Notes under the pieces: generated by a model
Told to the model about the DNA's origin: nothing
Seen by the model: the letters and a program-made list of their open reading frames with translations, nothing else
Databases searched by the model: none
NCBI GenBank assembly: GCA_022703625.1
Contig: JAKLDH010000007.1
Coordinates: 1-46,735, forward strand
DNA length: 46,735 nt
Source: Cyanobacteriota bacterium
Lineage (GTDB): Bacteria; Cyanobacteriota; Vampirovibrionia; Gastranaerophilales; UBA9971
Direction: 5' to 3'
Part shown: piece by piece, positions 3,055 to 41,131 of the stretch
Layout: every line of letters starts with the position of its first letter
Position numbering within the stretch: position 1 is the first letter of the stretch
Program-made: the position numbers and the translations under genes

Positions 3055-3122
3055 CAGAAACAAAAAACGTTATCCTGAGCGAAGCGAAGGATCTCATGGC
3101 AATAATACAAAAGGAGATAACA

Positions 3123-18602: not shown

Positions 18603-19658
18603 TTGATAAATATTAATAACATAAAATTAACTTCAGATATGCTTCTTATCATTAGCGAAATAGACGAATTTAAGGGTTCTTGGAAAGCTATTGGAAAATT
18701 ATCGCCGGAAAGATTAAAAGCACTTAAAAAAGTTGCAACAATCGAAAGTATAGGCTCTTCAAACAGAATTGAAGGAAACAGACTTTCCGATAAAGAAGTA
18801 GAGGGTTTATTATCTCAAATTGACAGAAAATCTTTTGCCTCAAGAGATGAAGAAGAAGTTGCAGGCTACGCTAATCTTATGGACACAATTTTTCAAGACT
18901 GGGAAGTTATTCCATTCAATGAAAATTATATAAAACAGCTTCATAAGATACTTTTACAATATTCAACAAAAGATGAAAAACACAGAGGCGAGTATAAAAA
19001 ACTTTCAAACAGCGTTGCGGCTTATGATGCAAATGGCAATCAGTTGGGCATAGTCTTTGAAACCGCAACTCCATTCGAAACCCCTCAAATGATGAAAGCT
19101 TTGGTTGATTGGACAAAATCAGTTATTGAGGATAAAGCATTGCATCCCCTGATAACTATTGGAATATTTGTTGTTTCCTTTCTTGCAATTCATCCTTTTC
19201 AAGACGGCAACGGCAGAATTTCAAGGGCATTAACCGCCCTGCTGTTATTAAAATCAGGTTATGCTTATACCCCATATTGCTCCATAGAATCTATTGTGGA
19301 AGATAACAAGGAAGGTTATTACAGAGCCTTGCGCTCAACCCAGTCAACTCTTCGAGGCGAGCAAAACTTTGAACCTTGGCTTATGTTTTTTTTAAGAACC
19401 CTTCAAAAGCATAAAATCAGGCTGGAAAATAAAATCGGCAAGGATATTACTTATATGACCGAGCTACCTGAGCTTTCAGCAAAGATTATGGAAATAATTG
19501 AAAGCAAAGAACGCATTACAGTTTCTGAAGTTATAGAAAAAACCGGAGCCAATCAAAATACAATTAAAAAACATTTAGCAGAATTGGTTTTAAAAGGATA
19601 TTTAATCAAGCATGGTAAAACACGTGGAGCTTGGTACACAAAAGCTAAAGAAAATTGA
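18603..19658 (+). CDS. Fic-family protein (AMP-transferase type, class II) with C-terminal winged helix
   Basis: The 351-residue protein has the canonical active-site loop HPFQDGNGR at about 197-205. Its N-terminal inhibitory helix (SNRIEG, Ser53 to Glu57-Gly58) fits the [S/T]xxxE[G/N] rule of class II Fic proteins, in which the glutamate blocks ATP binding. The last ~65 residues are a winged-helix domain (ITVSEVIEKTGANQNTIKKH), suggesting DNA binding or autoregulation. Fic enzymes transfer AMP from ATP to protein hydroxyls. The start is TTG 18603 with GAGG six bases upstream; the next ATG would drop 12 residues. Composition resembles its neighbours. Confidence 0.9.
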   Translation: MININNIKLTSDMLLIISEIDEFKGSWKAIGKLSPERLKALKKVATIESIGSSNRIEGNRLSDKEVEGLLSQIDRKSFASRDEEEVAGYANLMDTIFQDWEVIPFNENYIKQLHKILLQYSTKDEKHRGEYKKLSNSVAAYDANGNQLGIVFETATPFETPQMMKALVDWTKSVIEDKALHPLITIGIFVVSFLAIHPFQDGNGRISRALTALLLLKSGYAYTPYCSIESIVEDNKEGYYRALRSTQSTLRGEQNFEPWLMFFLRTLQKHKIRLENKIGKDITYMTELPELSAKIMEIIESKERITVSEVIEKTGANQNTIKKHLAELVLKGYLIKHGKTRGAWYTKAKEN

Positions 19659-22239: not shown

Positions 22240-22508
22240 AAAAGACGTCATGCTGAATTTATTGAGTGAAGCAGGCGTTGCAATCCGCTAATTAGCCGAA
22301 ACAGTCATCCTGAGCAGAGCGAAGGATCTCATGGAAAGAATGCGTCATGTTGAGCGAAGCGAAACATCTCATGGCTTATATACAATAAGATTCTTCGGGC
22401 TAAAGCCCTCAGAATGACGATTAAAAAAAATAATTGGCGACCCAAGTTAATTGAGGTTTTACAAAACCCATCGTTTTTATTTGCCGATTTTTTTTAATGA
22501 TTGGTATA
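22240..22508. repeat. Composite dispersed repeats and a MITE arm
   Basis: The order is GTCATGCTGAA, GTCATCCTGAGCAGAGCGAA, GTCATGTTGAGCGAAGCG, CTAAAGCCCTCAGAATGACG, then an arm TTTGCCGATTTTTTTTAATG and TTGGTATA. This is the same module order as 3761-3896. It fills most of the gap between 22110 and 22576. Confidence 0.65.
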
Positions 22509-22576
22509 ATTAAAATCGCTTTGTTATAAAATGTATTTAAATAAACTAAATTTTAACGAGATTATAGGGGTTAAAA

Positions 22577-24046
22577 ATGCAGGAAGAAAATAGATTTGAA
22601 TATACTGTCAGAACATGCGATTGCGATGATACCCAAGCCCTTGAAAATATTCTTAACGAAATGTCCATAGAGGGATGGGACCTTTATTCGCTTAATGAGG
22701 TGGAAAACGATGAGGGCGAATACCAATATTTATGCATTTTTAGCCGTGAAGCAGAAAATATTCACGAGTTTGAAGACGAATATATTGTTGATTCCGGCGA
22801 TTTTAAATCAAGAATGAAAAAACTTCTGCATAAAAAAGAAGACCTTTACGAAGAATGCCGATTTTTACAACGCCATATTAAAGAAAAAAATCAAAAAATC
22901 AAAGATATTAAAAACTCTCTGGATTTAAACCCTGAAGCAGAAGACAGAGAGCTCCTGAATAAAGAAATTTCCGAAAAAATAAATGAACTGAATCTTTTAA
23001 AATCAAAATTTTCAGAGCTTCTTTCGCCCTCCGGCATGTATAAAAGAATAAGCCAGGACATTCTTACAATCGTTGTAAGTTATGAACTTTCCGAGCTTAT
23101 AGATAACGAAAAGGACGGCGACCTTATAGCAGAAAGCGTAAGGCTTAGACAAAAGCTTACAGACAAGTTGGGTTATATTATCCCGGGAATCCATTTTGTC
23201 ATATCCGATGAAATGAATGAAAATGAATATAATATCAAGGTCAGAAACCTAAAAACGCTTTCAGGTGTTGTATATCCAAAACACAGAAGATTTTTTATCG
23301 GGCAATCAAATCTTCAGACACCGCCGGAAGGCGCAATAGAAGATATTGACGAGCTTAACGAGCAAAGGGTTTTTTGGGTTGAAGAAGAAAAAACAAAAGA
23401 TTTTTGGGAAGGCGGCATGACTCCATCTCAGGTTATAACCAGTCATTTGGAAATTATAGTCAGAAAATATGTCGAAGATATTATCAGCTATGAAGATATT
23501 TTAAATTATATTTCCCTTCTCGAGCAAGAAAAGTCATTTTTGGCGGATAATTTGACTAATGAAGGCATTTCTCTAGGCGATCTGAGATATATTTTTGCAA
23601 ATTTAATAAGGGAAAAAGTTTCTGTTAAAGATATTGTCTTTATTTTTGAACGGTTGAACGATCTTTCTGAATATGGGCATGACAATGAAAAACTGCTTAA
23701 AGAACTGAGGTTGCTCCTGAAAAAGCATATTTGCAGTGATATTGCCGATATTAATAATACAATATACGCTGTAATAGCGCCTAAACAGTACAAAAAAGTT
23801 CTTTGCGATTTATTAAAAGCAAGTATTGAGAAAAAATGCATTGAAGAAAGCGTTGAGCTTGAAAAATTCGTTAAATATATTACTAATACCTTGCAAAATC
23901 AGGAATATGACGCATCCAGCACTGCCGTTATCTGCGAATCTGAATACAGAAAACCCTTGTTTAATTTCCTTGACCGAATAATACCAGGCATTAATGTTCT
24001 TTCAGAAGAAGAAATCGCAGAAGAATTTACTGTTCATGAAATTTAA
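22577..24046 (+). CDS. Soluble FlhA/SctV cytoplasmic-domain-like protein with N-terminal DUF4177-like domain
   Basis: Of 489 residues, about 5-56 form a small alpha/beta domain of DUF4177 style (FEYTVRTCD, EGWDLYSLNEV, YLCIFSR). Residues ~76-148 are coiled coil. From ~160 to the end the order follows the cytoplasmic domain of FlhA/SctV export gates: VVSYELSELID and GDLIAESVRLRQKLTDKLGY, IIPGIHFVISDEMNENEYNI, VVYPKHRRFFIG, MTPSQVITSHLEIIVRKY, ISLGDLRYIFANLIREKVSV, KDIVFIFERLNDLSEYG. The ~330-residue multi-helix membrane domain of real FlhA is absent, and no flagellar or type III gene is nearby. It would be cytosolic and may bind chaperone-like or secretory partners. AGGGG precedes ATG 22577. 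Confidence 0.75.
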   Translation: MQEENRFEYTVRTCDCDDTQALENILNEMSIEGWDLYSLNEVENDEGEYQYLCIFSREAENIHEFEDEYIVDSGDFKSRMKKLLHKKEDLYEECRFLQRHIKEKNQKIKDIKNSLDLNPEAEDRELLNKEISEKINELNLLKSKFSELLSPSGMYKRISQDILTIVVSYELSELIDNEKDGDLIAESVRLRQKLTDKLGYIIPGIHFVISDEMNENEYNIKVRNLKTLSGVVYPKHRRFFIGQSNLQTPPEGAIEDIDELNEQRVFWVEEEKTKDFWEGGMTPSQVITSHLEIIVRKYVEDIISYEDILNYISLLEQEKSFLADNLTNEGISLGDLRYIFANLIREKVSVKDIVFIFERLNDLSEYGHDNEKLLKELRLLLKKHICSDIADINNTIYAVIAPKQYKKVLCDLLKASIEKKCIEESVELEKFVKYITNTLQNQEYDASSTAVICESEYRKPLFNFLDRIIPGINVLSEEEIAEEFTVHEI

Positions 24047-24232: not shown

Positions 24233-25156
24233 ATGGATGTAGCAAAACAAAATCAATCTTGCCCCCAAAAACAACAATCTATTTTAATTGAACGCAAATA
24301 TGTAAGATACAGACCTGAAAACCATTCTCAAAAGGCTGTAGAGAAGAAAGACTACCTAAACGCAATGATGCCGGATCAATACATTAAAAACAAGGCGTTA
24401 AGTGAAGCAGTAAAAAAACATAACGATTCAACCGCAAATAAAATAGAAAACGGCATGATATTATTAGGCGTCCCTGTTGCCGCAAGCATTGCAACCGGAG
24501 CGACCACTGCGGCTCAAACAGTTGCTGAAAAAGTCAAAAACACCCTGACGGAAGGGAAAAAATGGGGAGTTGCTTTAACAGGCGCAATAGGCGGCTATCA
24601 ACTCATCAATTCTGCCGCTAATAATATTTCAGGCTTGAAAGAATTTAAAGAAAATCATCAAGGACTTACAACTACAGGCTCTTTTGTAGGAGCTGTCGCA
24701 ACCGGATATGCGGCGAACAGCGTTGTTGACTCATTAACCAATAAAATTGCAGGTTCTTCAATAAATAAACAAACTGTCGGAATCAGCATGCAAAAATTTG
24801 CAACCGGTCTTGGCGAAAGTTTAAATAAGTCTAAAACAGGAGAACTTTTAAATAATAAAATTTTCAAACCAACAGAAAAATTCTTGAAAGAAACCCGCCC
24901 CGGTAAGTTTATTGATAATTTTGGGGCGTTTTTATTACTTGGAGGTCTTGCTCTTAAGTTTATAAATGATAATGATAAAATCAATAAAGACAGTAAAAAA
25001 ATCAAACAAAACCTTGAAAATCAAAGAAGAGAAAGTATACAAAAAATTGTGGCAAATCCGTTCAGTCAAGCTCCTGTTCAAGCCGTAAAAAGTGAAGAAA
25101 GCAGTAAAATCTTTATACTTCCGGCTGAAGCGAAGCAGGCATTAGCGGATAGTTAA
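24233..25156 (+). CDS. Unknown protein with glycine/alanine-rich hydrophobic segments (307 aa)
   Basis: No family recognised. The polar N-terminus (~70 residues, with ERKYVRYRPENHSQK) is followed by several weakly hydrophobic Ala/Gly/Thr-rich helices: MILLGVPVAASIATGATTAA, WGVALTGAIGGYQLI, SFVGAVATGYAANSVV, FGAFLLLGGLALKFI. The tail is charged. This layout parallels the genes at 7947 and 12469, so the three may be lineage-specific membrane-associated proteins. GGGTG precedes ATG 24233. It is followed after 22 bases by the C_GCAxxG gene, possibly one transcript. Confidence 0.55.
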   Translation: MDVAKQNQSCPQKQQSILIERKYVRYRPENHSQKAVEKKDYLNAMMPDQYIKNKALSEAVKKHNDSTANKIENGMILLGVPVAASIATGATTAAQTVAEKVKNTLTEGKKWGVALTGAIGGYQLINSAANNISGLKEFKENHQGLTTTGSFVGAVATGYAANSVVDSLTNKIAGSSINKQTVGISMQKFATGLGESLNKSKTGELLNNKIFKPTEKFLKETRPGKFIDNFGAFLLLGGLALKFINDNDKINKDSKKIKQNLENQRRESIQKIVANPFSQAPVQAVKSEESSKIFILPAEAKQALADS

Positions 25157-28655: not shown

Positions 28656-28688
28656 TTAAGAGAATAATGCAGTATATGCATTAATTCT

Positions 28689-28761
<73 letters not shown>

Positions 28762-28876
28762 TTTTTTATTGCAAGGGTTTCGGCGTTTTTATAAAATTCG
28801 GTTTTTAAGGGTCTTGTGTAAATCTTGTGTAATGGATTGTTTTGTGGAGGCTGTCAAAGATGGTCAATTATTAGTT

Positions 28877-30532
28877 TCACGAGGTTTTAGCATTAAATTC
28901 GTCATCAGTCGTTGCTTTCTGTTTTAAAAGCAAATTGCATAATTTTTCCATTTCACTATCAGCGATAGTAAGCATTTCTTCGAGCCTTTCAAAATGATGT
29001 TTAATTTGTTTTTTAATTATTTTATTGTCAGGTTCTACGAAAGCTCTGTAAGCATAAGAAATAAAGTTTCTTTTGCCGAGGTGGGTGTATCTGGAATATA
29101 GAGTTTTCCTGTATAGTTTTTTGTGTTTTTCCTGTATTTGAATACCTGAGCCGTGCATTTTTCTGAGCTTAACTTTTGCATTCTCTTTAGCTGCTGTAAT
29201 AGCTCGTTTGGACTTTCTTAAATACCTTGCCAGACTGCTACCCCTTATTTCTATATTTTCTCCGTCAAATGAAAAGCCCAGGTATTGTAAGGGTCGCTGC
29301 TTTATAGTTTTGTCCATAAAGTTATAACACTGACTTTTTGAATATTTGTTTCCTTCTTCAATGGGGTGTATTTCTAAGGATTCGCCACGTTCTTTAATTG
29401 CTTCATGAACAGCCGTAATAACTTTATCTTTATTTTCATAATCACATATAAATAAAATATCATCTGAATAACGCCTATACAGAGCACCTATCGAGTTAGC
29501 CAATTCCTTCATTTTACCGTCAAACGGCATCATATAAATATTTGATAATAATGCTGACATAGCAGAGCCTTGTGGAATACCGAAAGGACGTTTTAATTGC
29601 TTTCCGTTTTTATCAACTAAACCGGGGTTTTTATAAAATTTATGATTATACTGAATTTTATACCAGTCCCGGAATGCTCTAAAATCTTCAGTTTTTTTAA
29701 ATAGAACTTTCGGGAAGCCCCTAGTCTCTGGATTGGTACATTTTTCGCAGTTTTTATTACAAATATTTTGGTTTTCTCTATTAAAAAAATAGCAGATTTC
29801 TTTTATATCAATAAAAGAGTAATTTGTTAATGACTTGAATAAATTATAATGGTCAAGCGGTAATTGTTCTTTGCCTAAAAGGCTAGCCCATTCTATCTTT
29901 AAATTTTTATGGTCAATGTGGTCATAAAAACTTGCTATATCAAATGCTAACGCTATACATTTGCCATTCCTGCGTTTTATTTCATCAAAAACATTTTTTG
30001 CCATTGTACAATTATTTTTACGGTGGCTATCTTCATCAGGAGGAGCTACCCTATAAGCTAAAACCTCATCATCCAGCCCCAAACTTTTTATTTTCTCTTC
30101 ATAAAGCGGTGTAAGTATTTCTTTAGCGTAATATGAATAAATATACCCGTCCATATGCGCTGCATATCTAATAGGGCGAGGTTTTTTAATGCTTTTTCGT
30201 TCAAGCGATTCTTCCAGCTTTCTTTGAAGTTCTTTCTTTTCTTCCTCTGTTGAAGCTGTTTTTAACTCTTTTTGCAGCCTTTCTGTTTCATAAATAAAAC
30301 TATTTATCTTTCCCGCTCTTCTTTCAACTATATCGAAGCCAATGAACGGATAAAACATATATTTAGCGACTTTTTCGGGGTCTTCAACATAATTTTTTAC
30401 ATAAGAGAAAGCATTTTTATCGATTTTATTTTGTACAACAAGCCTTCTTGGTCTATCGAGGTGCGAATAGCCTTTAATTTCAAGCCATCTTGCTATTTTT
30501 CTTAGTTTCCTTGGTCTTTTTATCTTTGCCAA
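28877..30532 (-). CDS. Defence-type reverse transcriptase (unclassified, UG/DRT-like)
   Basis: The 551-residue RT has catalytic motifs in order: FDIASFYD at about 197-204, GIPQGSAMS at 318-326 and YRRYSDD at 352-358. Between the first two, a cysteine group CNKNCEKC (258-265) suggests a zinc-binding insert. The start is TTG 30532 with GGGAGG at eight bases; the N-terminal ~115 residues are basic and partly coiled coil. There is no maturase or endonuclease domain, no DGR signature and no obvious msr-msd RNA. It lies next to a restriction operon and a tRNA, so a phage-defence RT of the unknown-group/DRT type is the best reading. A subfamily cannot be given from sequence alone. Confidence 0.75.
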   Translation of the reverse strand: MAKIKRPRKLRKIARWLEIKGYSHLDRPRRLVVQNKIDKNAFSYVKNYVEDPEKVAKYMFYPFIGFDIVERRAGKINSFIYETERLQKELKTASTEEEKKELQRKLEESLERKSIKKPRPIRYAAHMDGYIYSYYAKEILTPLYEEKIKSLGLDDEVLAYRVAPPDEDSHRKNNCTMAKNVFDEIKRRNGKCIALAFDIASFYDHIDHKNLKIEWASLLGKEQLPLDHYNLFKSLTNYSFIDIKEICYFFNRENQNICNKNCEKCTNPETRGFPKVLFKKTEDFRAFRDWYKIQYNHKFYKNPGLVDKNGKQLKRPFGIPQGSAMSALLSNIYMMPFDGKMKELANSIGALYRRYSDDILFICDYENKDKVITAVHEAIKERGESLEIHPIEEGNKYSKSQCYNFMDKTIKQRPLQYLGFSFDGENIEIRGSSLARYLRKSKRAITAAKENAKVKLRKMHGSGIQIQEKHKKLYRKTLYSRYTHLGKRNFISYAYRAFVEPDNKIIKKQIKHHFERLEEMLTIADSEMEKLCNLLLKQKATTDDEFNAKTS

Positions 30533-30958
30533 AGAACATACCTCCCTAAAATCACAGAAGACACCCTCAATATATAGCCATCTTTCACCGGGTGCCCTCT
30601 AATGCTAGCTGTAATTCTGTTAAGGTGCTAATATTGTTTTATAGTCTTCTTGCAACTTCTATAAAACGCTAAAAGTCCCATCGCTGCTATAGATTAACGA
30701 AATATGTTATAATAAGTATAACAGGAAGGAAGTTTATCTTATGTCTTCACTCTTATTGTTCCTAATGGAATTAATTGTTCAGAACACAGGAGTTACTTCA
30801 TGTCTTCTTGCAAGCATAGAAATACTTGCAGTGTTTAACCTATTACCCACTGCATCTACACATAAGTGCAACACAATGGCATGATAATATTACCATAAAG
30901 ATATAAATTATAAGCCAAATATTAATTATCTTTTACATTATTGTTAACGATTAAAGGA
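30533..30958. other. 426-bp intergenic region upstream of the defence RT
   Basis: Several structures are visible. GTTTTATAG/CTATAAAAC pairs at 30636-30644 and 30659-30667. TGCAAG/CTTGCA pairs near 30806-30827, and a GCACCC/GGGTGT pair on the minus strand lies near 30560-30600. GTCTTCTTGCAA occurs twice, in the first hairpin loop and at 30799. A TATAAT at 30708 serves the plus strand. An RT-associated non-coding RNA could lie here on the minus strand. Confidence 0.4.
30741..30884 (+). CDS. Possible small hydrophobic peptide (47 aa) opposite the RT leader
   Basis: ATG 30741 follows AGGAAGGAAG at about eight bases, and TATAAT at 30708-30713 lies upstream. The product opens MSSLLLFLMELIVQNTG and continues with a second hydrophobic run (CLLASIEILAVFNLL) before a short polar end. 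It is the only plus-strand candidate between two minus-strand operons. It may be a real small protein, a toxin-like peptide or chance; the good SD is the main support. Confidence 0.35.
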   Translation: MSSLLLFLMELIVQNTGVTSCLLASIEILAVFNLLPTASTHKCNTMA

Positions 30959-32926
30959 CTATAATAAATTTAATTGTTTTTGTGTAATCGTTTTATCCCC
31001 TTTGCCACAAGGAATTAACTTTTTTGACCTCATCCAGCATAAATAATCCCTTAAATCAGCGGGGTTAAATCTTTTTTTAGATTCGTCCCAGTTATTTCTG
31101 AACTCCTTAATTATATCCTCATCATTAAATGCTTTTTTATCTATAAGGAAATCGTTCCAGACAGCATATAACGTTGCTATAGCTTCACAATAGTTAGTGT
31201 CTTTTTCTTTAAGTAAAGTAATAATTTCCATGATTTTTGATGATTCTTCCTTGAAACAAGTATCAAAAAGGGTTTTGACTTCATTAACGTTTGTTGCTGG
31301 CTTATAAACTGTTTTTCCAGCATTACCGGAGGTTTCTTTTAACACGGAAAACCATTGTTTTTCTTCAAATATTTCTTCAACTTTATATCGAGATTCATAA
31401 TCATGCGGACCTGCCGGCATTTTTATATATCTTCCACCTAAAGGCAAACCCAAATGTTTTTCACATAGATATAGTATTTTTTCATGCTTTACTACGCCAA
31501 ATTTTTTCAGTTTATATAACTGTAAGACAATGCCTCCACTGCAAATTGCCCTTTTTTCTATGGCTGTATTTATGCAAACTACATTAGTGTTTTCATTTTC
31601 TGTTATTTCATCAGGCTTAAAAGCTTCTTGCAACACCGCTTGTATTAGCTGCTCGCTGTGGGTTTTGGATTTTATTATTTGATGTTCCAGCTCATTACAA
31701 TACTGCATCAGCTTATCCACTTTTTCTACTATACGATTTTGTTCAGCGAGTGGAGGAATGGGGATTAGAAAATTTCGTAAAATATTAAGATTAAGTCCTT
31801 TATATGCAATTCCTCTCAGATTATTAAATGTTGTTTGTTGTATATAAGGTGAAGTAAGAACGTTAAGTATAAATTTATTACAAATAAAATCATTTATTGG
31901 AATTAAAGCTATTTCACGAGCAATATTAAACCCTTTTAATTCTGAAGGTACAATGGCACAACCACCTAATGTTCCTCGAATATTCATTAAAAGTTCTCCG
32001 CCTTGAAGTATTGTACGAATGTATTGATTTGAAATTTCTTCAGTTACTTTTCTGGTATTAAATGTATCAATATATCTAAACTTAACATCGCTACATCTAA
32101 GCGCAAAAATCCCTTTTTGGGGTTCAATTCCCATTTTTACAATACCGTATGTTATATCTTTAGAAGGATTTAACAAATTACCAAGTTTTTCCCATTCCCA
32201 GCCCAACGGTAGTTTATAGGGCTTTTCTTCGCCTTTTATTGGGGGTAATGGCTTTTCATTCTTGAGCTTACCTTCTTTAACCAGTCGGTCTTTTTCTGCC
32301 TTTATTTTCTGTAATAAAACAGATGCTGGCTCATCACTTGGGTCTTGCGAAACCAGCTTGCCTTGTATAGCGTCTTGAAGGATTGACTGTCTAAGTTGGT
32401 TTAGCAGAATTTCATTATTTTTATCATTTTGTACTAATTCTTCAATTTCATTTGCAAGGTTATTAATTTTATTAGCAATGTTTCTTTGTTCTTCTATATC
32501 AGGCAAATAAATTTGCAAAGGCAAAAACTGTTTGGGTTTAATTTCTGTTTTAATACCGCCTTTTACCTGCTGTTTAAGAACATTTTTAAAAGCATTGCTT
32601 TTTAAAAACCATTTTAAGTATTCAATATCAATCTTGTTTTTATCATATTCGTAAGATGAATAGTGAATTGTAGCTAAAATATTATCTTCACCTTCATAAA
32701 CAGCCAGCGCACCTTTTTCAACGTTAATACCGGAAATAACTAAATCTCCATTTTTAACGGTAATCATATCTGTTTTAGTGGGTTTATTTTCAACAATGTA
32801 CATATTGCCTGAAAAATCAATCTTTTCCAGCCTTTTTAAACCCATTTCATTAGCTACGACAGGCTTTATCCTTCCGTTTCTTTCTTTCAGGAAATCACCT
32901 ATTTTTACTTTATTCCACTCGCCCAT
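30959..32926 (-). CDS. hsdS: Type I restriction specificity subunit HsdS with extra C-terminal domain
   Basis: The 655-residue protein recognises the two halves of the target site. It has two target-recognition domains (about 1-165 and 235-430), each followed by a helical spacer. The family phrases LPDIEEQRNIANKINNL and IPPLAEQNRIVEKVDKLM sit at the domain ends. Residues ~470-655 are not part of normal HsdS; they include GRYIKMPAGPHDYESRY and DLRDYLCWMRSKKLIPCG. I start at ATG 32926, one base after the hsdM stop (TAG-T-ATG), so the genes are translationally coupled. The longer frame to 32968 overlaps hsdM. Confidence 0.92.
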   Translation of the reverse strand: MGEWNKVKIGDFLKERNGRIKPVVANEMGLKRLEKIDFSGNMYIVENKPTKTDMITVKNGDLVISGINVEKGALAVYEGEDNILATIHYSSYEYDKNKIDIEYLKWFLKSNAFKNVLKQQVKGGIKTEIKPKQFLPLQIYLPDIEEQRNIANKINNLANEIEELVQNDKNNEILLNQLRQSILQDAIQGKLVSQDPSDEPASVLLQKIKAEKDRLVKEGKLKNEKPLPPIKGEEKPYKLPLGWEWEKLGNLLNPSKDITYGIVKMGIEPQKGIFALRCSDVKFRYIDTFNTRKVTEEISNQYIRTILQGGELLMNIRGTLGGCAIVPSELKGFNIAREIALIPINDFICNKFILNVLTSPYIQQTTFNNLRGIAYKGLNLNILRNFLIPIPPLAEQNRIVEKVDKLMQYCNELEHQIIKSKTHSEQLIQAVLQEAFKPDEITENENTNVVCINTAIEKRAICSGGIVLQLYKLKKFGVVKHEKILYLCEKHLGLPLGGRYIKMPAGPHDYESRYKVEEIFEEKQWFSVLKETSGNAGKTVYKPATNVNEVKTLFDTCFKEESSKIMEIITLLKEKDTNYCEAIATLYAVWNDFLIDKKAFNDEDIIKEFRNNWDESKKRFNPADLRDYLCWMRSKKLIPCGKGDKTITQKQLNLL

Positions 32927-32927
32927 A

Positions 32928-34367
32928 CTATCCTGCAACCTCTGCTTTGATTTTTTCCAGCAATGCAAGGCTATTGTTCATTGATTTAGTTAGTTTTTTT
33001 ATTATTTCTTCAGTGCTGTGCAGTTGTTCTTCCTCTGCTGAGTTGGGATTTTTTATATCAAGGTTAAAATTCCTGTCCCTGACTTCATCAGCGGAAACCT
33101 TCCAAGCATATTCGCTTTCTACTCGATTATTCCACCATTGCTTTTCCAGTTCAAATTCTTCTATCCTTATTGGATTAGTGCGAGAATAATTTTTTATGCC
33201 CTGGGGTAAGGGATGTTCAAAAAACCATATATCCTTTGTCTGTTCACCTTTTGTGAAGAATAACAAGTTTGTTTTAATGGCTGTATATGGGTTAAATACC
33301 CCGTTAGGCAGCCTTACAATAGTGTGCAGGTTGCAATCCTGCAATAATTTTTCTTTAATTCTTGTTTTTACGCCTTCCCCGAACAGCGAACCGTCAGGAA
33401 GTACCATGCCTGCTCTGCCTTGATGTTTTAATATGTGCATAATAAAAACAAGGAATAAATCAGCAGTTTCACGTGTCCTGTAAGTGGCAGGATAGTTATT
33501 TTCAATGCCTGGCTCTTCTGTGCCACCAAAAGGCGGGTTTGTAATAACTATATCAACCCTGTCCGCCGGGGAATAATTTATTAGGGGCTTTGCTAGTGTG
33601 TTATCACGTCTAATATTGGTTGGTGTATCAATTCCGTGCAGTATCATATTTGTAACGCATAACTGGTGAGGTAATGGCTTTTTTTCTACTCCTGATATGG
33701 AATTTTGTAGCAATGTTTCTTGCTCTGGGTTTTGTACCTGCTTTCTTAAATGGTCAATTGCGCAGGTAAGGAATCCGCCCGTACCGCACGCCGGGTCAAA
33801 CACCTTTTCGCCGAGCTGTGGGTTTGTCATATCAACAAGGAACTGTGTTACCGCCCTGGGGGTGTAGTATTCTCCGGCATTGCCCGCCGCCTGTAAGTCC
33901 TTTAACAACTGCTCATAAATATCATTAAACAGGTGTCTGTCCTCTGTGGAATTGAAATCCACTTCATTAATCTTGTTTATCACCTGCCGGATGAGCGTGC
34001 CGGACTTCATATAGTTGTAAGTATCCTCGAATATTTCCCTTACAATCAGGGCTTTGTCATCGCCATCTACAGGCAATTCTTTTAGGGTTTTAAATAGCTT
34101 TTCGTTAATAAAGTCAAGCAGTTCATCCCCTGTCATTCCTTCCGGGTCGGCTGCCCAGTTTCTCCAGCGCAGGTTTTCAGGCATGGGGGATTTATATTTT
34201 TTGCCTAACAACTGGCAATTCATTTCAAATTGTAATTCTTTATCATCAAATATCTTTAAAAATAACATCCAAACAAGCTGCGACAGCCTCTGCGCATCCC
34301 CGTCAACACCCGTGTCCTGCCGCATTATGTCCTGTATTGATTTTATTACTGCTGATATGTTTGGCAT
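32928..34367 (-). CDS. hsdM: Type I N6-adenine methyltransferase subunit HsdM
   Basis: The 479-residue enzyme has the N-terminal helical domain (IQDIMRQDTGVDGDAQRLSQ). The SAM-binding motif FDPACGTGGF is at about 190-199 and the catalytic NPPF at 277-280. It methylates adenine in the site chosen by HsdS and protects host DNA. Length is normal. It is flanked in the same operon by the unknown gene at 34379 (11-base gap) and by hsdS (coupled). Confidence 0.96.
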   Translation of the reverse strand: MPNISAVIKSIQDIMRQDTGVDGDAQRLSQLVWMLFLKIFDDKELQFEMNCQLLGKKYKSPMPENLRWRNWAADPEGMTGDELLDFINEKLFKTLKELPVDGDDKALIVREIFEDTYNYMKSGTLIRQVINKINEVDFNSTEDRHLFNDIYEQLLKDLQAAGNAGEYYTPRAVTQFLVDMTNPQLGEKVFDPACGTGGFLTCAIDHLRKQVQNPEQETLLQNSISGVEKKPLPHQLCVTNMILHGIDTPTNIRRDNTLAKPLINYSPADRVDIVITNPPFGGTEEPGIENNYPATYRTRETADLFLVFIMHILKHQGRAGMVLPDGSLFGEGVKTRIKEKLLQDCNLHTIVRLPNGVFNPYTAIKTNLLFFTKGEQTKDIWFFEHPLPQGIKNYSRTNPIRIEEFELEKQWWNNRVESEYAWKVSADEVRDRNFNLDIKNPNSAEEEQLHSTEEIIKKLTKSMNNSLALLEKIKAEVAG

Positions 34368-34378
34368 TTAGGTTTCCT

Positions 34379-34975
34379 TTATTTATTATAAAATTCATCA
34401 AATTGTTTTTTGCAAAATTCTTTAGCAGTAGACAATTTTTCATTATAACTTTCAGAAAATTTAATATGTTCAATTTTATGGCTTATTTTTATCAAGGCAA
34501 TTATATTAAATAAGGTTTCATCATCTTTAACTAATCCAAATAATCCCTGATTAGATGTAAAAATATCAGGAATTTCTTTTTCTAAATCAATATTAAAAGA
34601 TTTATACTGTATCATAATATTTTGAAGAGCTCTATATGCCGATTTCATATTCTTTTTAGATTCATTAAGTATTTCAACTTGATTACTAGTAAAAGAATCA
34701 CGCAGAAGGTTACTTTGCTTATTACCACTATTTATTACTTGAACAGTATCCCTAGTCAAATCGCCCAAATCATTTGAGTTAAATATGTTATCAATATCTA
34801 TTATGAATCCATAAAGTTTTTCTGCTAATTCCAATTTCTTTTTAGCTTTAATTTCATTTTTCCAAGTATTCTTTGCTTGCCAAGCAATAACAGCGATAAC
34901 TATGGTTACTATTGTGTAAATCACTGATGATATTGCTGTTATCCAGTCGGTGGTAGTTGGTTCTAAGTTAAACAT
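34379..34975 (-). CDS. Unknown membrane-anchored protein inside the hsd operon (198 aa)
   Basis: One N-terminal membrane helix (WITAISSVIYTIVTIVIAVI, about residues 11-30) is followed by ~165 soluble, helical residues rich in Lys, Asn and Ile. No family or catalytic motif is seen. With its neighbour at 34994 it separates hsdR from hsdM, and the gaps (18 and 11 bases) show co-transcription. A membrane-tethered accessory to the restriction system, or a separate two-gene defence unit captured in the operon, are both possible. Confidence 0.65.
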   Translation of the reverse strand: MFNLEPTTTDWITAISSVIYTIVTIVIAVIAWQAKNTWKNEIKAKKKLELAEKLYGFIIDIDNIFNSNDLGDLTRDTVQVINSGNKQSNLLRDSFTSNQVEILNESKKNMKSAYRALQNIMIQYKSFNIDLEKEIPDIFTSNQGLFGLVKDDETLFNIIALIKISHKIEHIKFSESYNEKLSTAKEFCKKQFDEFYNK

Positions 34976-34993
34976 TTGGGTTTCCTTTTGAAA

Positions 34994-35686
34994 TTATATT
35001 TCTAATTCTTTCTTCAATAGTCCTTTTAATTCATTAATTATATTTTTTGCTTCATCTCTTATTTCGTCCCTCTTTTGGTTTTCTTCCTTTCCTAGAGGAA
35101 ACTCAACCGATGGAGGGTTAGCATAGAAACTTATTATTTTACAAAGTTTTTTATCAAGTTGATTCATTTTTTCACTTATTTCTTCATTGTTTATCAATAT
35201 TTCGTTTAAATAAAAAAATTTTCTTATGTCGATTAACCAACTTTGTTTTTGATTGTCTATATAAATTAATTTTCTCTCAGCAATTCGTCTTTCTGCTTCA
35301 TTTTTATCCCCTGAGTTCCATATTTGTATTATTTCTTCAATATTTCCGCTAGATGTATTTATTGAATTTAAGTATTGCCTCATGTCGTTTGTGTTGTCAA
35401 AAGAAGTAGAAGATATTGCCCAAGTTGGATATATGCCATCTTTTACCATGATTAGCTTTTCATATAAAGATGAAATTACATTTAATTTTTTTTCAAATAA
35501 AAAATTATGTTTTTGCTTTTTAAGGTCAAATTCTTTATTTATTTTTAACCTTTCATTTTCCTTGTTCTGTGTCCACCATATAGTAAAAATTGGAACCAAA
35601 ATACCAACTAAACTAGGTACTATTATCTTTCCCCATTCCATTAATTGGTTCGGTTTATTAATATAATTTGTTGTAAATAATTCCAT
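34994..35686 (-). CDS. Unknown membrane-anchored coiled-coil protein inside the hsd operon (230 aa)
   Basis: It begins directly at the hsdR stop (TAG followed at once by ATG), so translation is coupled. One membrane helix (IIVPSLVGILVPIFTIWW, about residues 21-38) is followed by a Lys/Glu/Asn-rich helical region (ENERLKINKEFDLKKQKHNF) and a long helical domain. No family is recognised. Its layout is parallel to the next gene: short N-terminus, one helix, soluble helical body. They may act as a pair at the membrane. Confidence 0.65.
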   Translation of the reverse strand: MELFTTNYINKPNQLMEWGKIIVPSLVGILVPIFTIWWTQNKENERLKINKEFDLKKQKHNFLFEKKLNVISSLYEKLIMVKDGIYPTWAISSTSFDNTNDMRQYLNSINTSSGNIEEIIQIWNSGDKNEAERRIAERKLIYIDNQKQSWLIDIRKFFYLNEILINNEEISEKMNQLDKKLCKIISFYANPPSVEFPLGKEENQKRDEIRDEAKNIINELKGLLKKELEI

Positions 35687-38062
35687 CTAGCCTACCCCGT
35701 AAAGTTGCTGCTCAAGCTCCAGCAGGGCTTCTTTGAATTTATCCAGTCCGCCAAAAGTGTTGATGATCTCAAGAGGTGTACCAAATCCATTAAATGGTTG
35801 TATGGATAATATTTTCGGGTCTTCTATGCTTTCTATGCCCTCGTTTGTGTACTTATCCAGCAGAGCCTCCAGCACCAGCCGGGCTTTGTTTTTGTACTTT
35901 CCGAAATAATTCCTTTTCTTGACGTTATTTGCCCGCTCCTGCCGTGTCAGTGGCGGCATATCAAAAGCAACATGGCATATTAAATCAAAAGAATCCAGCT
36001 CCATACCAAGCTTTTTACTGACTTCTTCCTTTAACTCCTCGAACATAACCCCGTGCTCTGCCAGTTCCTCAATAATAGCTTGCTTTCTATCTGTTGAGTT
36101 CCACTTTTTAATAAAATAATCCAGCGAAGCATACTCTTTTTGTACATTTTCCTTTGTAAAATCAATCAATGATTCTGTAATTAGCTTGCCATCCTTGCCA
36201 TAATACATTTTGCGCTCGCCTATTTGCACTACTTCTATGTCATTTACATAATATTTTCTTTGTGGTTCTTTAGGGTCGCCGGATATTTGTTCAGGGGGTA
36301 TCGGCTCAGAAATTCCGGCTTCCGACTGGATAGTTGTTTCATCTTCTCCTATTTCAATGTCTATAGGGTCATTTTGTTCCGGTTCATATATTTGTACCGG
36401 CTCGCCATCAAATTCCGGGTCTTCAAATAACTTTGTAGCGTTCCTAAAATCCATAATAGTAAAAAACATTTTATTATAGTCTTCGCTTAAACGAGTTCCC
36501 CTGCCTATAATTTGTTTAAATTCAGTCATTGAGTTTATATTTGAATCTAAAACAATTAATTTACAGGTTTTAGTGTCTACACCTGTAGTTAATAACTTTG
36601 AGGTCGTAGCTATAACTGGATAAATAGCTTCTGGGTCTTTAAAATTATCAAATTCAAGTTTTCCTTCCTCGTCATTTCCAGTTATTCGCATAACATACTT
36701 TGAGCATTGATTTACAAGGTCAGTATTTTCATTAATTAATGCCTGCCTCATCCGTGCTGCATGCTCTGTATCTATACAAAATACAATGGTTTTAGCAAAC
36801 CTATCATTTGTTTTTAGGAATTCGGTAACTCTTTTAGCTACAAGCTGAGTTCTTGGCTCAATAACCAAATTTTTATCAAAATCTTTTGTGTTATATTCCC
36901 TCTGCTCAATAGAGTTCCCATATTTATCTAGTTTGCCTTCTTCTGGCGTGTATCCGTCAATGTCAACATTTATAATAGGTCTTATAACCTTATACGGAGC
37001 AAGGAAACCATCTTCAATGCCCTGTTTTAGCGAGTATGTATATATTGGCTTGCCGAAATAATGAATATTTGAAACGTACTTAGTTTCTTTTGGGGTGGCT
37101 GTTAAGCCTATTTGTGTTGCTGATGAAAAATATTCAAGAATTTCTCGCCAAGCTGAATCGTCTGCTGCGCTGCCACGATGGCATTCATCAACAACTATAA
37201 GGTCAAAAAAGTCCTTAGAAAATTGTTTATAAACATTTTTTATTTCTTCCGTTCCTGATACTCCCTGATAAAGGGCTAAATATATTTCATAGGCTTTATC
37301 TATCTTTCTATTACTTATTTTTGTCATTATGTCCCCAAAGGGAGCAAAATCATTATTTTTAGTCTGATCTACAAGCATATTTCTATCAGCTAGGAAAAGA
37401 ATTCTTTTTTTAATTCTTGCTTTCCAAAGCCTCCATATAATTTGAAATGCAGTATATGTTTTGCCTGTACCTGTAGCCATTACAAGCAATATTCTATTTT
37501 GACCTTTTGCAATGGCTTCTATAGTGCGGTTTATGGCAATTCTTTGATAATATCTAGGCTCTTTACCACTTGTATCAATATGGTATTCTTGTGTAACTAT
37601 TCTTTCAGCTTCTTCTATTGTTATTCCCTTATAGGCTTTATATTTTTGCCATAGTTCATCAGGAGAAGGGAAGCTGTTAATGTTCAGTTCTTTTTCAATT
37701 GTGCCTTCTGTTATTGTTTTGTCGTGAAACTGGAAAGCCTCACCATTGGATGAAAATACAAATGGAATGTCCAATATTTCAGAGTATTCAAGAGCTTGCT
37801 GCATTCCATCACCTACCGCACGTGTATTGTCTTTAGCCTCAATAATAGCAATAGGAATATTTGATTTATAAAATAATACGTAGTCTGCCCTTTTCTTTTT
37901 ACCTCTTGTTACAAGGTTTTTCCCTCTAACGATAACCCTGCCATCAGTAAAGGTATATTCTTCTCTAATCTGACGTTTTATATCCCAACCAGCCTGCTCT
38001 ATAGCAGGTGTAATAAATTTTGTACAAATATCACGCTCAGAAAGCTGTTTTTTATTAAGCAT
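35687..38062 (-). CDS. hsdR: Type I restriction endonuclease subunit HsdR
   Basis: The 791-residue motor/nuclease has the N-terminal PD-(D/E)XK site (Asp60, then IIEAK with Glu75 and Lys77). The SF2 translocase follows: Walker A GTGKT at 198-202, DECH at 292-295, a TATP motif, and a second RecA-like half. The end resembles the EcoEI-type C-terminal domain. It cuts unmodified DNA after translocation. First gene of the operon hsdR-unknown-unknown-hsdM-hsdS. ATG 38062 has no clear SD. A ~90-bp repeat element lies about 145 bases upstream. Confidence 0.95.
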   Translation of the reverse strand: MLNKKQLSERDICTKFITPAIEQAGWDIKRQIREEYTFTDGRVIVRGKNLVTRGKKKRADYVLFYKSNIPIAIIEAKDNTRAVGDGMQQALEYSEILDIPFVFSSNGEAFQFHDKTITEGTIEKELNINSFPSPDELWQKYKAYKGITIEEAERIVTQEYHIDTSGKEPRYYQRIAINRTIEAIAKGQNRILLVMATGTGKTYTAFQIIWRLWKARIKKRILFLADRNMLVDQTKNNDFAPFGDIMTKISNRKIDKAYEIYLALYQGVSGTEEIKNVYKQFSKDFFDLIVVDECHRGSAADDSAWREILEYFSSATQIGLTATPKETKYVSNIHYFGKPIYTYSLKQGIEDGFLAPYKVIRPIINVDIDGYTPEEGKLDKYGNSIEQREYNTKDFDKNLVIEPRTQLVAKRVTEFLKTNDRFAKTIVFCIDTEHAARMRQALINENTDLVNQCSKYVMRITGNDEEGKLEFDNFKDPEAIYPVIATTSKLLTTGVDTKTCKLIVLDSNINSMTEFKQIIGRGTRLSEDYNKMFFTIMDFRNATKLFEDPEFDGEPVQIYEPEQNDPIDIEIGEDETTIQSEAGISEPIPPEQISGDPKEPQRKYYVNDIEVVQIGERKMYYGKDGKLITESLIDFTKENVQKEYASLDYFIKKWNSTDRKQAIIEELAEHGVMFEELKEEVSKKLGMELDSFDLICHVAFDMPPLTRQERANNVKKRNYFGKYKNKARLVLEALLDKYTNEGIESIEDPKILSIQPFNGFGTPLEIINTFGGLDKFKEALLELEQQLYGVG

Positions 38063-38207
38063 TCATGCAATCCGAATAAAAAAAAATTACATGATTATTT
38101 ATAGCATAAATACAATGAAGCATTGAATTTTTTAAGAAAAATCAGGTTTTAACTCTACAAATTTTTTAATTTCATGTAAACCTTTATTCATTTGATACAA
38201 ACACATT

Positions 38208-38300
38208 CACTGGTCATAGAAGAGGATTTTTACATGCTCTAGGGGTTTTTGGCTTTGAATTTTATGTAATAGCCTAGATTTTTATACAGTTTAGCTAATT
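38208..38300 (-). repeat. Conserved non-coding element upstream of hsdR
   Basis: It shares ATAGAAGA, GGGTTTTTGGCT, and a TACAGTTTA-CTAA end with 46519-46607 in the same orientation. On the minus strand it lies directly after the stop of one gene and ahead of a nuclease gene in both cases. Between it and hsdR is AT-rich sequence with a 19-codon ORF (MNKGLHEIKKFVELKPDFS). Confidence 0.55.
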
Positions 38301-38787
38301 AAAATAATTTTGTGGGCGTTATGGATTCATGAAGACTAAAAGGTTTTAAAATGCCATTATTAGAAATAATGCCGTTAAAACTCTTTTCCTGCCAAGCTGA
38401 AACAAAGTAAGGACGGATATAATTGCCTTCTTTATCAAGATGATAAGACGTTCCTCTATATTCTTTTCCGCAATATTCCTGTTCTTTGACCAATTCGCCT
38501 TTTTTATTGAAATATCTTTTGATATAAAAAGTTTGTTTTCCATCAGGACTATAATTGTATTCTTTTTCCACCATTTTTACTTTATCAATCCTGAAAACCC
38601 TTTTAGTAACTTCTTTTAAGCCAGCCTGCTTGCAAGTTTCGGTTACAATAATTACATTTTTGCCAATATATTTATATCTATATTTCAGTATATAAAGAAA
38701 ACCGCCCTTGCTATCATATACATTCTTTGTATATTTTGTTTTAGGCGGATTTTCTTCGATTTTGTTATTGAAAAAATACTTATACAT
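38299..38787 (-). CDS. Unknown protein (162 aa)
   Basis: No family recognised. The product is strongly basic and rich in Tyr and Lys, with beta-strand-like repeats of the form YxYxGKNVIIVTET, KEYNYSPDGKQTFYIKRYFN, KKGELVKEQEYCGKEYRG and YHLDKEGNYIRPYF. The Y-x-x-K-G pattern recalls MORN- or Rhs-like beta hairpins (weak). There is no signal peptide. It lies 11 bases downstream of the integrase gene on the same strand, so it may be cotranscribed. Confidence 0.5.
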   Translation of the reverse strand: MYKYFFNNKIEENPPKTKYTKNVYDSKGGFLYILKYRYKYIGKNVIIVTETCKQAGLKEVTKRVFRIDKVKMVEKEYNYSPDGKQTFYIKRYFNKKGELVKEQEYCGKEYRGTSYHLDKEGNYIRPYFVSAWQEKSFNGIISNNGILKPFSLHESITPTKLF

Positions 38788-38798
38788 TCATTTACCAC

Positions 38799-39827
38799 TT
38801 AAAATTTTGCCAGTGCTTCTATTGCCATTTTCTTACGCTCCGGCACAGGGTGAGCATACCTCATTGTGGTTGTAATGTTTGCATGCCCTAATATGTCTTG
38901 CACAATGACTAATTCCACTCCTAAAGCCACCATTCTTGTTGCTGCTGTATGTCTTAAATCATGAAACCTTAAATTCTTAATGCCTGCTTTTTTACATAAA
39001 AGCTCAAAGCCTTTTCTTATTGTATTATAAGGTTTTCCGGTAATAGGACTAGGGAAAACATACTCATTTACTTGCTTTTTAATGAGTTCTTCAAAATAAC
39101 TTTTTAAAGTTGAGCTTATAGGGATTTTCCTGTCTTTACCGCTCTTTGTCTTTGTTACCGTTATAAACCCTTCCTGTAGATTGACATTGCCCCACTTTAA
39201 ATTAAAGATTTCTCCCCTGCGCATGCCAGTATGCAGTGCGCATACAAGGATAGGCTTCATATATTCCTGTGTGCCAGTGCAAAAATAAAGCAATTTTTCT
39301 TCTTCCTCTCGCTGGAGGAATCGTTCCATCTTGGTATCTTCCCTTAATTTCTTAATGCACCTACAGGGATTTATAGCTAACCAGCCATTTTTCACTGCAA
39401 TACTCAACATTTTGCTTAAAATAGCAATTTCCCTGTTAATTGTTGCATTAGATAAAGGTTTTGAGTTTTTCTTCGGAGTATTCTTACGGCTTGCCCTGTA
39501 TTTTTCTATCAGGCTTGGGGAAATGTCGCCTATTTTATATCCCTGAAAGAATTCTGTTAGCTTGTTAATTTTACCTGCTTCTTTCTTCCAAGATAATTTG
39601 GCTGTTTGGGCATACTCATTGTACACTTCCAGCAATTTCATAAACGGCATTTCCCCGATTCCTTCAACAAGATTATATTTTCCCTGCAAAAGTTCAGCTT
39701 TAATAATGGTTTCTGCCTTTTCTGCATCCTTGCGGGAGGTAGCTTCAGGAACTGCCCTGTGATAGCGTTTCCCACGAACCATTAGGCTTATATACCATTT
39801 CCCAGTTTTACTTTGATATACTGGCAT
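38799..39827 (-). CDS. int: Tyrosine-type site-specific integrase
   Basis: The 342-residue recombinase has the N-terminal arm-binding region (YISLMVRGKRYHRAVPEATS), a SAM-like core-binding domain, and the catalytic set. The set is Arg203 in HTGMRRGE, His289 and Arg292 in FHDLRHT, His315 in LGHANITTT, and Tyr324 in MRYAH. It integrates and excises the element, probably at the tRNA-Phe 3' end. ATG 39827 lies two bases after the stop of the excisionase-like gene; the TTG at 39836 overlaps it. All catalytic residues are intact, so it may be active. Confidence 0.93.
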   Translation of the reverse strand: MPVYQSKTGKWYISLMVRGKRYHRAVPEATSRKDAEKAETIIKAELLQGKYNLVEGIGEMPFMKLLEVYNEYAQTAKLSWKKEAGKINKLTEFFQGYKIGDISPSLIEKYRASRKNTPKKNSKPLSNATINREIAILSKMLSIAVKNGWLAINPCRCIKKLREDTKMERFLQREEEEKLLYFCTGTQEYMKPILVCALHTGMRRGEIFNLKWGNVNLQEGFITVTKTKSGKDRKIPISSTLKSYFEELIKKQVNEYVFPSPITGKPYNTIRKGFELLCKKAGIKNLRFHDLRHTAATRMVALGVELVIVQDILGHANITTTMRYAHPVPERKKMAIEALAKF

Positions 39828-39829
39828 AA

Positions 39830-40069
39830 TTAACAAGCCTCTTTTACCTTTGTTTTTTCCATCTTAGCCCCTGCAAGTATCCATTCAACCAGCTTAGGCT
39901 TAATAAACAAAATTTTCCTGCCTATTTTTCTATACAGGTGGGAGGGGAATTTGTTTCTAGGCTTGCTTCCTGCCCCGCTCAAATAAGTATGAATACTTTT
40001 AGGCGTGCTTTTAAGGATTTCTGCAACTTCTTTTACTGTTAATAATTCAAGTGTTTCAAGCTCGTTCAT
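39830..40069 (-). CDS. Excisionase-family helix-turn-helix protein
   Basis: The 79-residue product contains LLTVKEVAEILKSTPKSIHT, a MerR/Xis-type helix-turn-helix, and the wing-like YRKIGRKILFIKPKLVEWI. Such proteins bend attachment-site DNA and steer the integrase toward excision, or repress the operon. It ends two bases before int. The binding domain fits the HTH_17 group. Confidence 0.82.
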   Translation of the reverse strand: MNELETLELLTVKEVAEILKSTPKSIHTYLSGAGSKPRNKFPSHLYRKIGRKILFIKPKLVEWILAGAKMEKTKVKEAC

Positions 40070-40136
40070 AGTTTTCTCCTATTATTTCTTACAAGTTTAT
40101 GTACGTAACTCTTGATTTTTTATATCCGAGCTTGAT

Positions 40137-40307
40137 TTATTCCAAATTTATATTTTTGTCTTTATTATTTGTTATACTTGATTTCAAGATATTATTTATC
40201 TTTTCTTCAACGATAGAGAGCCTTTCCTGAATATTTTTAATCTCATGCCCCAAGTCCTCAAAGCTTTCCTTTAAGTCAAATACTATTGCGCCAATCTTGC
40301 TTTTCAT
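40137..40307 (-). CDS. Small coiled-coil protein (56 aa)
   Basis: The product begins MKSKIGAIVFDLKESFEDLG and continues HEIKNIQERLSIVEEKINNI, a heptad-like helix, then a polar tail. AAAGGAGG lies seven bases before ATG 40307, a strong SD. It sits 11 bases after the ArdC-like gene on the same strand. No family recognised; a small helical plasmid-type protein. Confidence 0.6.
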   Translation of the reverse strand: MKSKIGAIVFDLKESFEDLGHEIKNIQERLSIVEEKINNILKSSITNNKDKNINLE

Positions 40308-40318
40308 AAAATCCTCCT

Positions 40319-41131
40319 TTATATCCCTTGAATGTAATTTATAGCTTCACTTGCCTTGCCTGAAGCCTTAAAAATAAAGTTTTTATCCTGCTTTAGGCAT
40401 TCGAGCCAGCTTTCTACGTAGCTGGCAGTGTTTTCTATATCAACAGAAATCCCGTATTCAGCACACAGAAAACTTGAACCTATTTCAGCAATAAGCTCCT
40501 CAAAAGCCCTGTCTGATTTATCTTTGCTGTTAATCCTGTCAAGCCTGTTTTTATGTCCTGTCCAGTGGATAAGTTCATGGAAAAGCGTCGGGTAATACTT
40601 TTGTTCATCCTTGAACTTGCTTTTTAATGGCATATTTATGAAATCATTCTCGAGGTTAAAATACGCCCTTTCCCCTTGATGCCTGATATTAGCACCTGTT
40701 TTAGACACCAACAGGTCAATTTCTTCAACAGGCTTTACATAAGGGTTTTCTTCCTGAGCCTCCAGCCCGTCAATCTGGTCAGCGTTAAAAACATAGTCAG
40801 TTTTAAAAAAGCGGGATATTACCTCTTCATCATTTCCGCCTTCCTCAACTTTTTTCCTGCTTGTCTGGCATACAATTATTGGAGTTCCTTTTTCTCCTTT
40901 TCTGACCCTGCCCCCAATATCTCTTGCCTGTGCAAAACCAAGCCAGTAATTGCTTGTATATCCACTAAACAAAGAAGTTAGCCACAGGCTAATGGTGTTA
41001 ACACCACTATATTTATGCTTTGTTTTTAAATTTGTGGGTAGGGTTGTCTTCTCAAAAGGGCATTTCCAAGGGGTTACGCCCTTTTCCAGAGCAAGAATAA
41101 TTTTGTCAGTTAAATTTTGCCTTATATCCAT
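40319..41131 (-). CDS. ArdC-like antirestriction protein with zincin metallopeptidase domain
   Basis: The 270-residue protein has the ArdC N-terminal ssDNA-binding domain (KIILALEKGVTPWKCPF, NTISLWLTS, GGRVRKGEKGTPI) and a C-terminal metallopeptidase domain with HELIHWTGH at about 185-193, plus a later ELIAEIGSSFLC with the third ligand. ArdC proteins are made early after plasmid or phage entry, cover single-stranded DNA and help evade host restriction. This supports a conjugative or phage-like origin of the region. GGAGG precedes ATG 41131. Confidence 0.9.
   Translation of the reverse strand: MDIRQNLTDKIILALEKGVTPWKCPFEKTTLPTNLKTKHKYSGVNTISLWLTSLFSGYTSNYWLGFAQARDIGGRVRKGEKGTPIIVCQTSRKKVEEGGNDEEVISRFFKTDYVFNADQIDGLEAQEENPYVKPVEEIDLLVSKTGANIRHQGERAYFNLENDFINMPLKSKFKDEQKYYPTLFHELIHWTGHKNRLDRINSKDKSDRAFEELIAEIGSSFLCAEYGISVDIENTASYVESWLECLKQDKNFIFKASGKASEAINYIQGI

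Follow-up and report, generated by a model that had tools for sequence, protein, structure and literature searches.

Closest described systems

The Gastranaerophilales are non-photosynthetic gut relatives of cyanobacteria. The rings formed by FlhA in flagella and by its homologue SctV are regarded as homo-nonamers made of the membrane gate itself. A soluble relative of another export-gate protein is reportedly present in Helicobacter: FlhX (HP1575) is described as a soluble homologue of the C-terminal domain of FlhB and a "spare part" (Wand et al. 2006, cited in PMC3040844). Like the protein described here, FlhX would be a soluble paralogue of a gate cytoplasmic domain existing beside the full-length protein; unlike it, FlhX derives from FlhB and not from FlhA, and the two are not homologous. 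FlhX is not known to have a DUF4177 module.

In Salmonella FlhA, glycine G368 of the GYXLI motif has been proposed as the switch of the open–close motion, and the G368C replacement stabilises the closed state (PMC9431611). Chaperones dock on FlhA at D456, which forms a hydrogen bond with a tyrosine of the chaperone, and at the hydrophobic cleft between subdomains D1 and D2, while SctV, which has no flagellar dimple, still binds chaperones (PMC5932034).

A soluble FlhA cytoplasmic domain

The window is a stretch of 46,735 nucleotides that makes up one whole contig (C134) of a 2.5 Mb Gastranaerophilales genome. One of its genes codes for a 489-amino-acid protein that is a soluble paralogue of the FlhA/SctV cytoplasmic domain (FlhA-C, SctV-C) and lacks the membrane half. 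The boundaries of D1–D4 listed below are approximate and were carried over from Salmonella FlhA.

22481..22510, + strand: putative promoter-like site TTGCCG-18-TATAAT with extended TG (10/12, consensus scan alone)
22566..22570, + strand: probable ribosome-binding site AGGGG, 6 nt 5' of the ATG
22577..24046, + strand: stand-alone FlhA-C gene (P0001), 489 aa, ATG start, FHIPEP match
22589..22750, + strand: N-terminal DUF4177/Sp36-like beta-alpha-beta-beta module, residues 5–58 (profile matches, model)
22793..23017, + strand: helical hairpin or coiled coil, residues 73–147 (AF2 helices 73–116 and 121–147)
23060..23281, + strand: first part of D1, residues 162–235 (structure and sequence alignment; approximate)
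23078..23080, + strand: codon of S168, in the first part of D1, which replaces the conserved GYXLI glycine (alignment)
23282..23425, + strand: D2, residues 236–283 (alignment; approximate)
23348..23350, + strand: codon of D258 in D2, equivalent to D456 and kept (alignment)
23357..23359, + strand: codon of N261 in D2, which replaces F459 (alignment)
23426..23482, + strand: second part of D1, residues 284–302, in which S289 is equivalent to T490 (alignment; approximate)
23483..23722, + strand: D3, residues 303–382, the best conserved FlhA-C subdomain (mean major-residue frequency 0.70)
23723..24016, + strand: D4, residues 383–480, the least conserved subdomain (mean major-residue frequency 0.50)

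The initial annotation had recognised the order of FlhA-C motifs from about residue 160 to the end of the protein, and named the lack of a FHIPEP match, or a fold unlike that of FlhA-C, as grounds for abandoning this assignment. The Pfam FHIPEP profile matches the protein with E=9.3e-48 and 163.6 bits, well above the curated cut-off of 29.1, and residues 139–483 align with positions 321–655 of the 657 positions of the profile, positions 1–320 being unmatched. The NCBIfam FlhA (E=8.8e-46) and SctV (E=4.4e-26) models likewise cover the cytoplasmic half alone; the FlhA score is 156 bits vs a cut-off of 772 for the full gate, and the SctV score is also far below its cut-off. A phmmer search of the PDB returns FlhA-C of B. 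subtilis (3mix, E=5.6e-26) and other gate domains. When the AF2 model of the whole protein (pLDDT 71, pTM 0.60) is compared with the PDB using Foldseek, the best 50 matches are all FlhA-C or SctV-C, with E values down to 9e-20 and target TM scores of 0.65–0.81; the predicted fold is thus that of the four-subdomain FlhA-C. These matches include chains of the nonameric SctV rings YscV (7alw) and CdsV (6wa6), with E about 1e-16 to 8e-19, and the ring domain is kept; SctV itself is a full membrane protein, and the stand-alone protein scores nearer to FlhA.

In place of the transmembrane domain of a full FlhA gate, residues 1–148 form a soluble module and a helical hairpin, and here the profiles and the model agree with the DUF4177-like module and coiled coil that had been read from the sequence. 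The DUF4177 match of the window protein is weak (E=0.03, 15–17 bits, vs a Pfam cut-off of 25 bits); DUF4177 is detected at E<=1 in 17 of 18 members of the family, with a best value of 7.5e-5, and NCBIfam Sp36 matches the window protein at 5e-5 and 16 of 19 members. The model of residues 1–148 consists of a beta-alpha-beta-beta module at residues 7–58 (pLDDT about 90) followed by helices 73–116 and 121–147, and the fold of the module resembles that of small phage DUF4177/DUF1737 proteins. Relatives of this N-terminal part in the PDB were just coiled-coil or sub-threshold matches, which are not informative.

Residues lost and kept

Residues were mapped in Salmonella numbering from phmmer and family alignments of 52 distinct stand-alone homologues and 41 full-length proteins. 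Stand-alone proteins, FlhA1 (the flagellar FlhA) and FlhA2 (a second full-length class, described below) have the same order of D1–D4 and the same major residue at 18 positions. The hinge glycine G368, present in 41/41 full-length proteins (FlhA1, FlhA2 and other FlhA of the class), is replaced by serine in 52/52 stand-alone homologues. The hydrophobic chaperone dimple formed by F459, L461 and T490 with D456 is replaced as well: F459 has become T, S, N or L, L461 mostly K or R, T490 mostly R or K and the neighbouring H491 mostly A or I, while D456 is kept in 51 of the 52. The loss of the hinge glycine and of the aromatic dimple makes chaperone docking unlikely. Since D3 is the best conserved subdomain and D4 the least, and the dimple is replaced, we infer that ring assembly is more likely to be the surviving function than canonical docking. 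The scaffold or chaperone-docking role suggested in the initial annotation therefore stands in its first half, a scaffold or ring being compatible with the kept D3, and is disfavoured in its second.

Distribution, selection and kinship

The full stand-alone architecture is found in 144 of 146 sampled Gastranaerophilales genomes with the family profile A1. The scores of these proteins range from 490 to 835 bits, and the next match, at 267 bits, is a full-length FlhA2. With this profile no stand-alone form is found in G026, which is 83% complete, nor in G134. Among 240 genomes of the class, none is seen outside the order, where the best matches have E values of 1e-74 or weaker; those examined in detail are full-length FlhA, apart from a 289-aa fragment in G171. 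The genomes searched outside the order include orders in which both FlhA1 and FlhA2 are present in full length. The dN/dS ratio of the gene is 0.02–0.12 (0.11–0.12 vs the nearest relatives): the gene is under purifying selection. It is also fixed in the order. A limited search of the literature returned no description of a stand-alone FlhA-C.

The stand-alone proteins form a clade with 100/100 support, and the best tree joins this clade to FlhA2 (87/82). This grouping is not decisive, since neither the topology that joins the clade to flagellar FlhA (p=0.36) nor that which joins it to other FlhA of the class (p=0.41) is rejected; for an origin from within the FlhA2 of the order, after the order split, p=0.0515. 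M154, D258, K351 and F357 are common to stand-alone proteins and FlhA2 and not to flagellar FlhA, while L340 is common to stand-alone proteins and flagellar FlhA and not to FlhA2. Stand-alone proteins and the FlhA2 of Gastranaerophilales also have in common a linker motif (SP..MY / NPN.MYE). FlhA2, by contrast, is a full-length membrane gate that keeps the hinge glycine and an aromatic residue at F459.

A second, non-flagellar type III apparatus

The protein had been described as occurring without its membrane export gate and without any flagellar or type III gene in the window. The latter agrees with our searches: the profile search finds no second FHIPEP match in the window, and no FliP, rod or flagellin is on this contig among the matches listed for the source genome. 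The former is true of the gene and wrong for the cell, as a survey of the genome for flagellar and type III genes, which the annotation had called for, reveals two full-length FlhA. One (contig C108, 885 bits) has FlhB and FliP nearby and is flagellar; the other, FlhA2 (contig C111, 715 bits), is preceded by FliE, FliF, a FliG-like protein and FliH, and belongs to a second apparatus.

FHIPEP matches occur in 146/146 genomes of the order and FliP in 145/146, and FlhA and FliP each split by score into a flagellar class (about 51 genomes) and a second class. The second class is found in the remaining genomes and also alongside the flagellar one, most genomes with the flagellar class carrying both; its counts are to be read as "at least" except where tallied. 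Flagellin is present in 54 of the 146 genomes, and the 92 that are flagellin-free also include carriers of second-type genes (FlhA2, FliP2, FliF and rods). The second apparatus of flagellin-free G018, for instance, comprises FliE, FliF, FliH, FlhA2, a FliM/N-type protein, FliO, FliP, FliQ, FliR and rods, and a protein without Pfam match sits between FliF and FliH. In G007, an ATPase adjoins FlhA2.

Throughout the order, with or without a flagellum, the genes of the second apparatus are scattered over several loci (L026 9746–16310; L078–L080). Incomplete flagellar sets have been reported for part of the order (PMC4040986), and flhA is listed twice among the conserved flagellar genes in Di Rienzi 2013 (PMC3787301); we found no literature that treats the second apparatus as a separate system.

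In G171, some proteins are encoded near the second-apparatus operon (L123 2287–5807), two of them with a possible stretch like a glycine-rich nucleotide-binding loop; these proteins could be exported substrates. A short run of polar residues and "SF[KG][GK]" stand at the start of several open reading frames near L078, L080, L008 and L010. As a secretion signal, an N-terminal "SF[KGN]" motif was rejected: its 24 occurrences near these loci, vs 13 and 14 in control windows, make too weak a case.

Further proteins derived from FlhA-C

The stand-alone form is not the only soluble or membrane-tethered protein derived from FlhA-C. Mini paralogues of about 213–335 aa, in which D1 and D3 are present and D2 and D4 absent, are carried by G044, G072, G083, G016, G096 (three copies), G113 and G127. 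The form of G040 (593 aa) has membrane segments, that of G122 is 418 aa long, and the 289-aa form of G171, which belongs to another order, lies immediately 3' of FlhA2. The loci of these further proteins are:

L124, 8146–9036
L127, 5042–6823
L128, 4107–5363
L129–L136
L123, 8998–9867

The domain has thus been repeatedly released from the membrane gate, which strengthens the case for a soluble FlhA-C having a use in these bacteria.

Possible functions

We tentatively propose, with a probability of about 0.45, that the stand-alone protein serves the order's second type III apparatus, that of FlhA2/FliP2 type, as an accessory and soluble ring subunit. The accessory role, the ring, the partnership with FlhA2 and the function as an adaptor are all inferred. 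The D1 and D3 surfaces would assemble the protein into a ring where the gate opens to the cytosol; this ring would either lie under that of FlhA2 as a separate one or include cytoplasmic domains of FlhA2 as well. Chaperones would not bind it through the usual dimple of hydrophobic residues, and the parts that take the place of membrane domain and linker, namely the helical hairpin and the DUF4177-like module, may link it, as a soluble adaptor, to some other component of the cytosol. A near-universal copy alongside a non-flagellar machine, even in species without flagella, suggests an extra and unusual part of that machine. Both the gene and the apparatus are, however, near-universal, so that their co-occurrence is little evidence, and G134, in which FlhA2 is present and the stand-alone copy was not found, indicates that the apparatus may not need it. 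It is conceivable, although we would not count on it, that the soluble paralogues (the universal DUF4177 form and, in the genomes that have them, the mini D1–D3 forms) make up an additional ring or a mixed one; gating and substrate choice of this apparatus would then depend on two or more kinds of ring subunit.

With a soluble paralogue fixed throughout an order of gut bacteria, there would be a natural case in which ring docking and gating are separated. The paralogue also suggests that a type III apparatus other than the flagellum exists in bacteria whose flagellum-like genes have been interpreted as an incomplete flagellum (PMC4040986, PMC3787301). Both this apparatus and its substrates could be relevant to the interaction of these human- and animal-gut bacteria with their hosts.

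The main rival to the accessory ring subunit is a use outside secretion, in which the soluble FlhA-C ring has become a cytosolic scaffold or regulator; we consider it unlikely. It would account for the loss of the hinge and dimple, and for a divergence larger than that of FlhA2 (mean identity 46% vs 69%, the FlhA2 set being smaller and partly from other orders). It would also account for the genomic context: the gene is not linked to type III operons and lies outside those of the second apparatus, FlhA2 and FliP2 being themselves dispersed. Conserved neighbours had been sought in relatives, and those of the window are not conserved; depending on the lineage the gene is next to a PSP1-domain gene, BamA-OmpH-nucleoside phosphorylase-amylomaltase, or ribosomal genes. 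FliP2 lies no more than 15 kb away from it in 7 of 98 genomes, which represent three lineages at most, and FlhA2 no more than 30 kb away in 4 of 101, about chance level; proximity to second-apparatus genes, being weak and correlated with lineage, was discarded as a clue. The confinement of the protein to an order with near-universal components of the second apparatus, and the best tree, which joins it to FlhA2, speak against a use outside secretion.

Still less probable is a decoy or negative regulator, which would insert into the FlhA2 ring and, having neither hinge glycine nor membrane domain, might lock or titrate the gate. The kept ring domain, the lost glycine and the closed state stabilised by G368C in Salmonella (PMC9431611) would suit such a regulator, but no regulatory linkage is seen. 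We give little credit to a platform free in the cytosol for docking chaperone–substrate complexes, the first suggestion made for this protein: the FlhA-C fold is there, the residue that contacts the chaperone tyrosine (D456) is nearly always kept, and SctV binds chaperones without the flagellar dimple (PMC5932034), but almost every copy has polar, charged or otherwise altered residues at the equivalents of F459, L461, T490 and H491.

An accessory factor of flagellar hook export is very improbable. In G007 the gene does lie upstream of a flagellar-looking fliJ-fliK-flgD-flgE cluster, and the gene is 16 kb from FlhA2. The gene is nevertheless present in nearly all of the 92 flagellin-free genomes, which largely refutes a flagellar role, and in 50 genomes the flagellar FlhA and FliP are always on other contigs. 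Last, the missing membrane half, and a copy in the relative G251 that also lacks the N-terminal part, might suggest that a duplicated flhA has left a fragment in decay, but the occurrence in 144/146 genomes, the uniform architecture and the dN/dS values dispose of decay, as they do of an assembly artefact.

Other features of the window

A dispersed repeat, GAGCGAAGCGAARNATCTCATG, occurs at 3077, 3794, 22312 and 22352 (4 copies with <=3 mismatches vs 0 expected), the last two copies being just upstream of the stand-alone gene. Downstream of the gene, 24233–25156 encodes a Gly/Ala/Thr-rich protein with hydrophobic stretches, which has no Pfam match and is weakly conserved (28–32% identity in close relatives). 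The gene at 18603–19658 codes for a protein of the Fic/DOC family whose C-terminal part is a winged helix. A probable integrated island (28688–41131) adjoins tRNA-Phe. It encodes a defence reverse transcriptase of the DRT2 type (PADLOC Drt2, 1.7e-124), the type I restriction proteins of hsdS, hsdM and hsdR, a phage integrase and an anti-restriction protein resembling ArdC.
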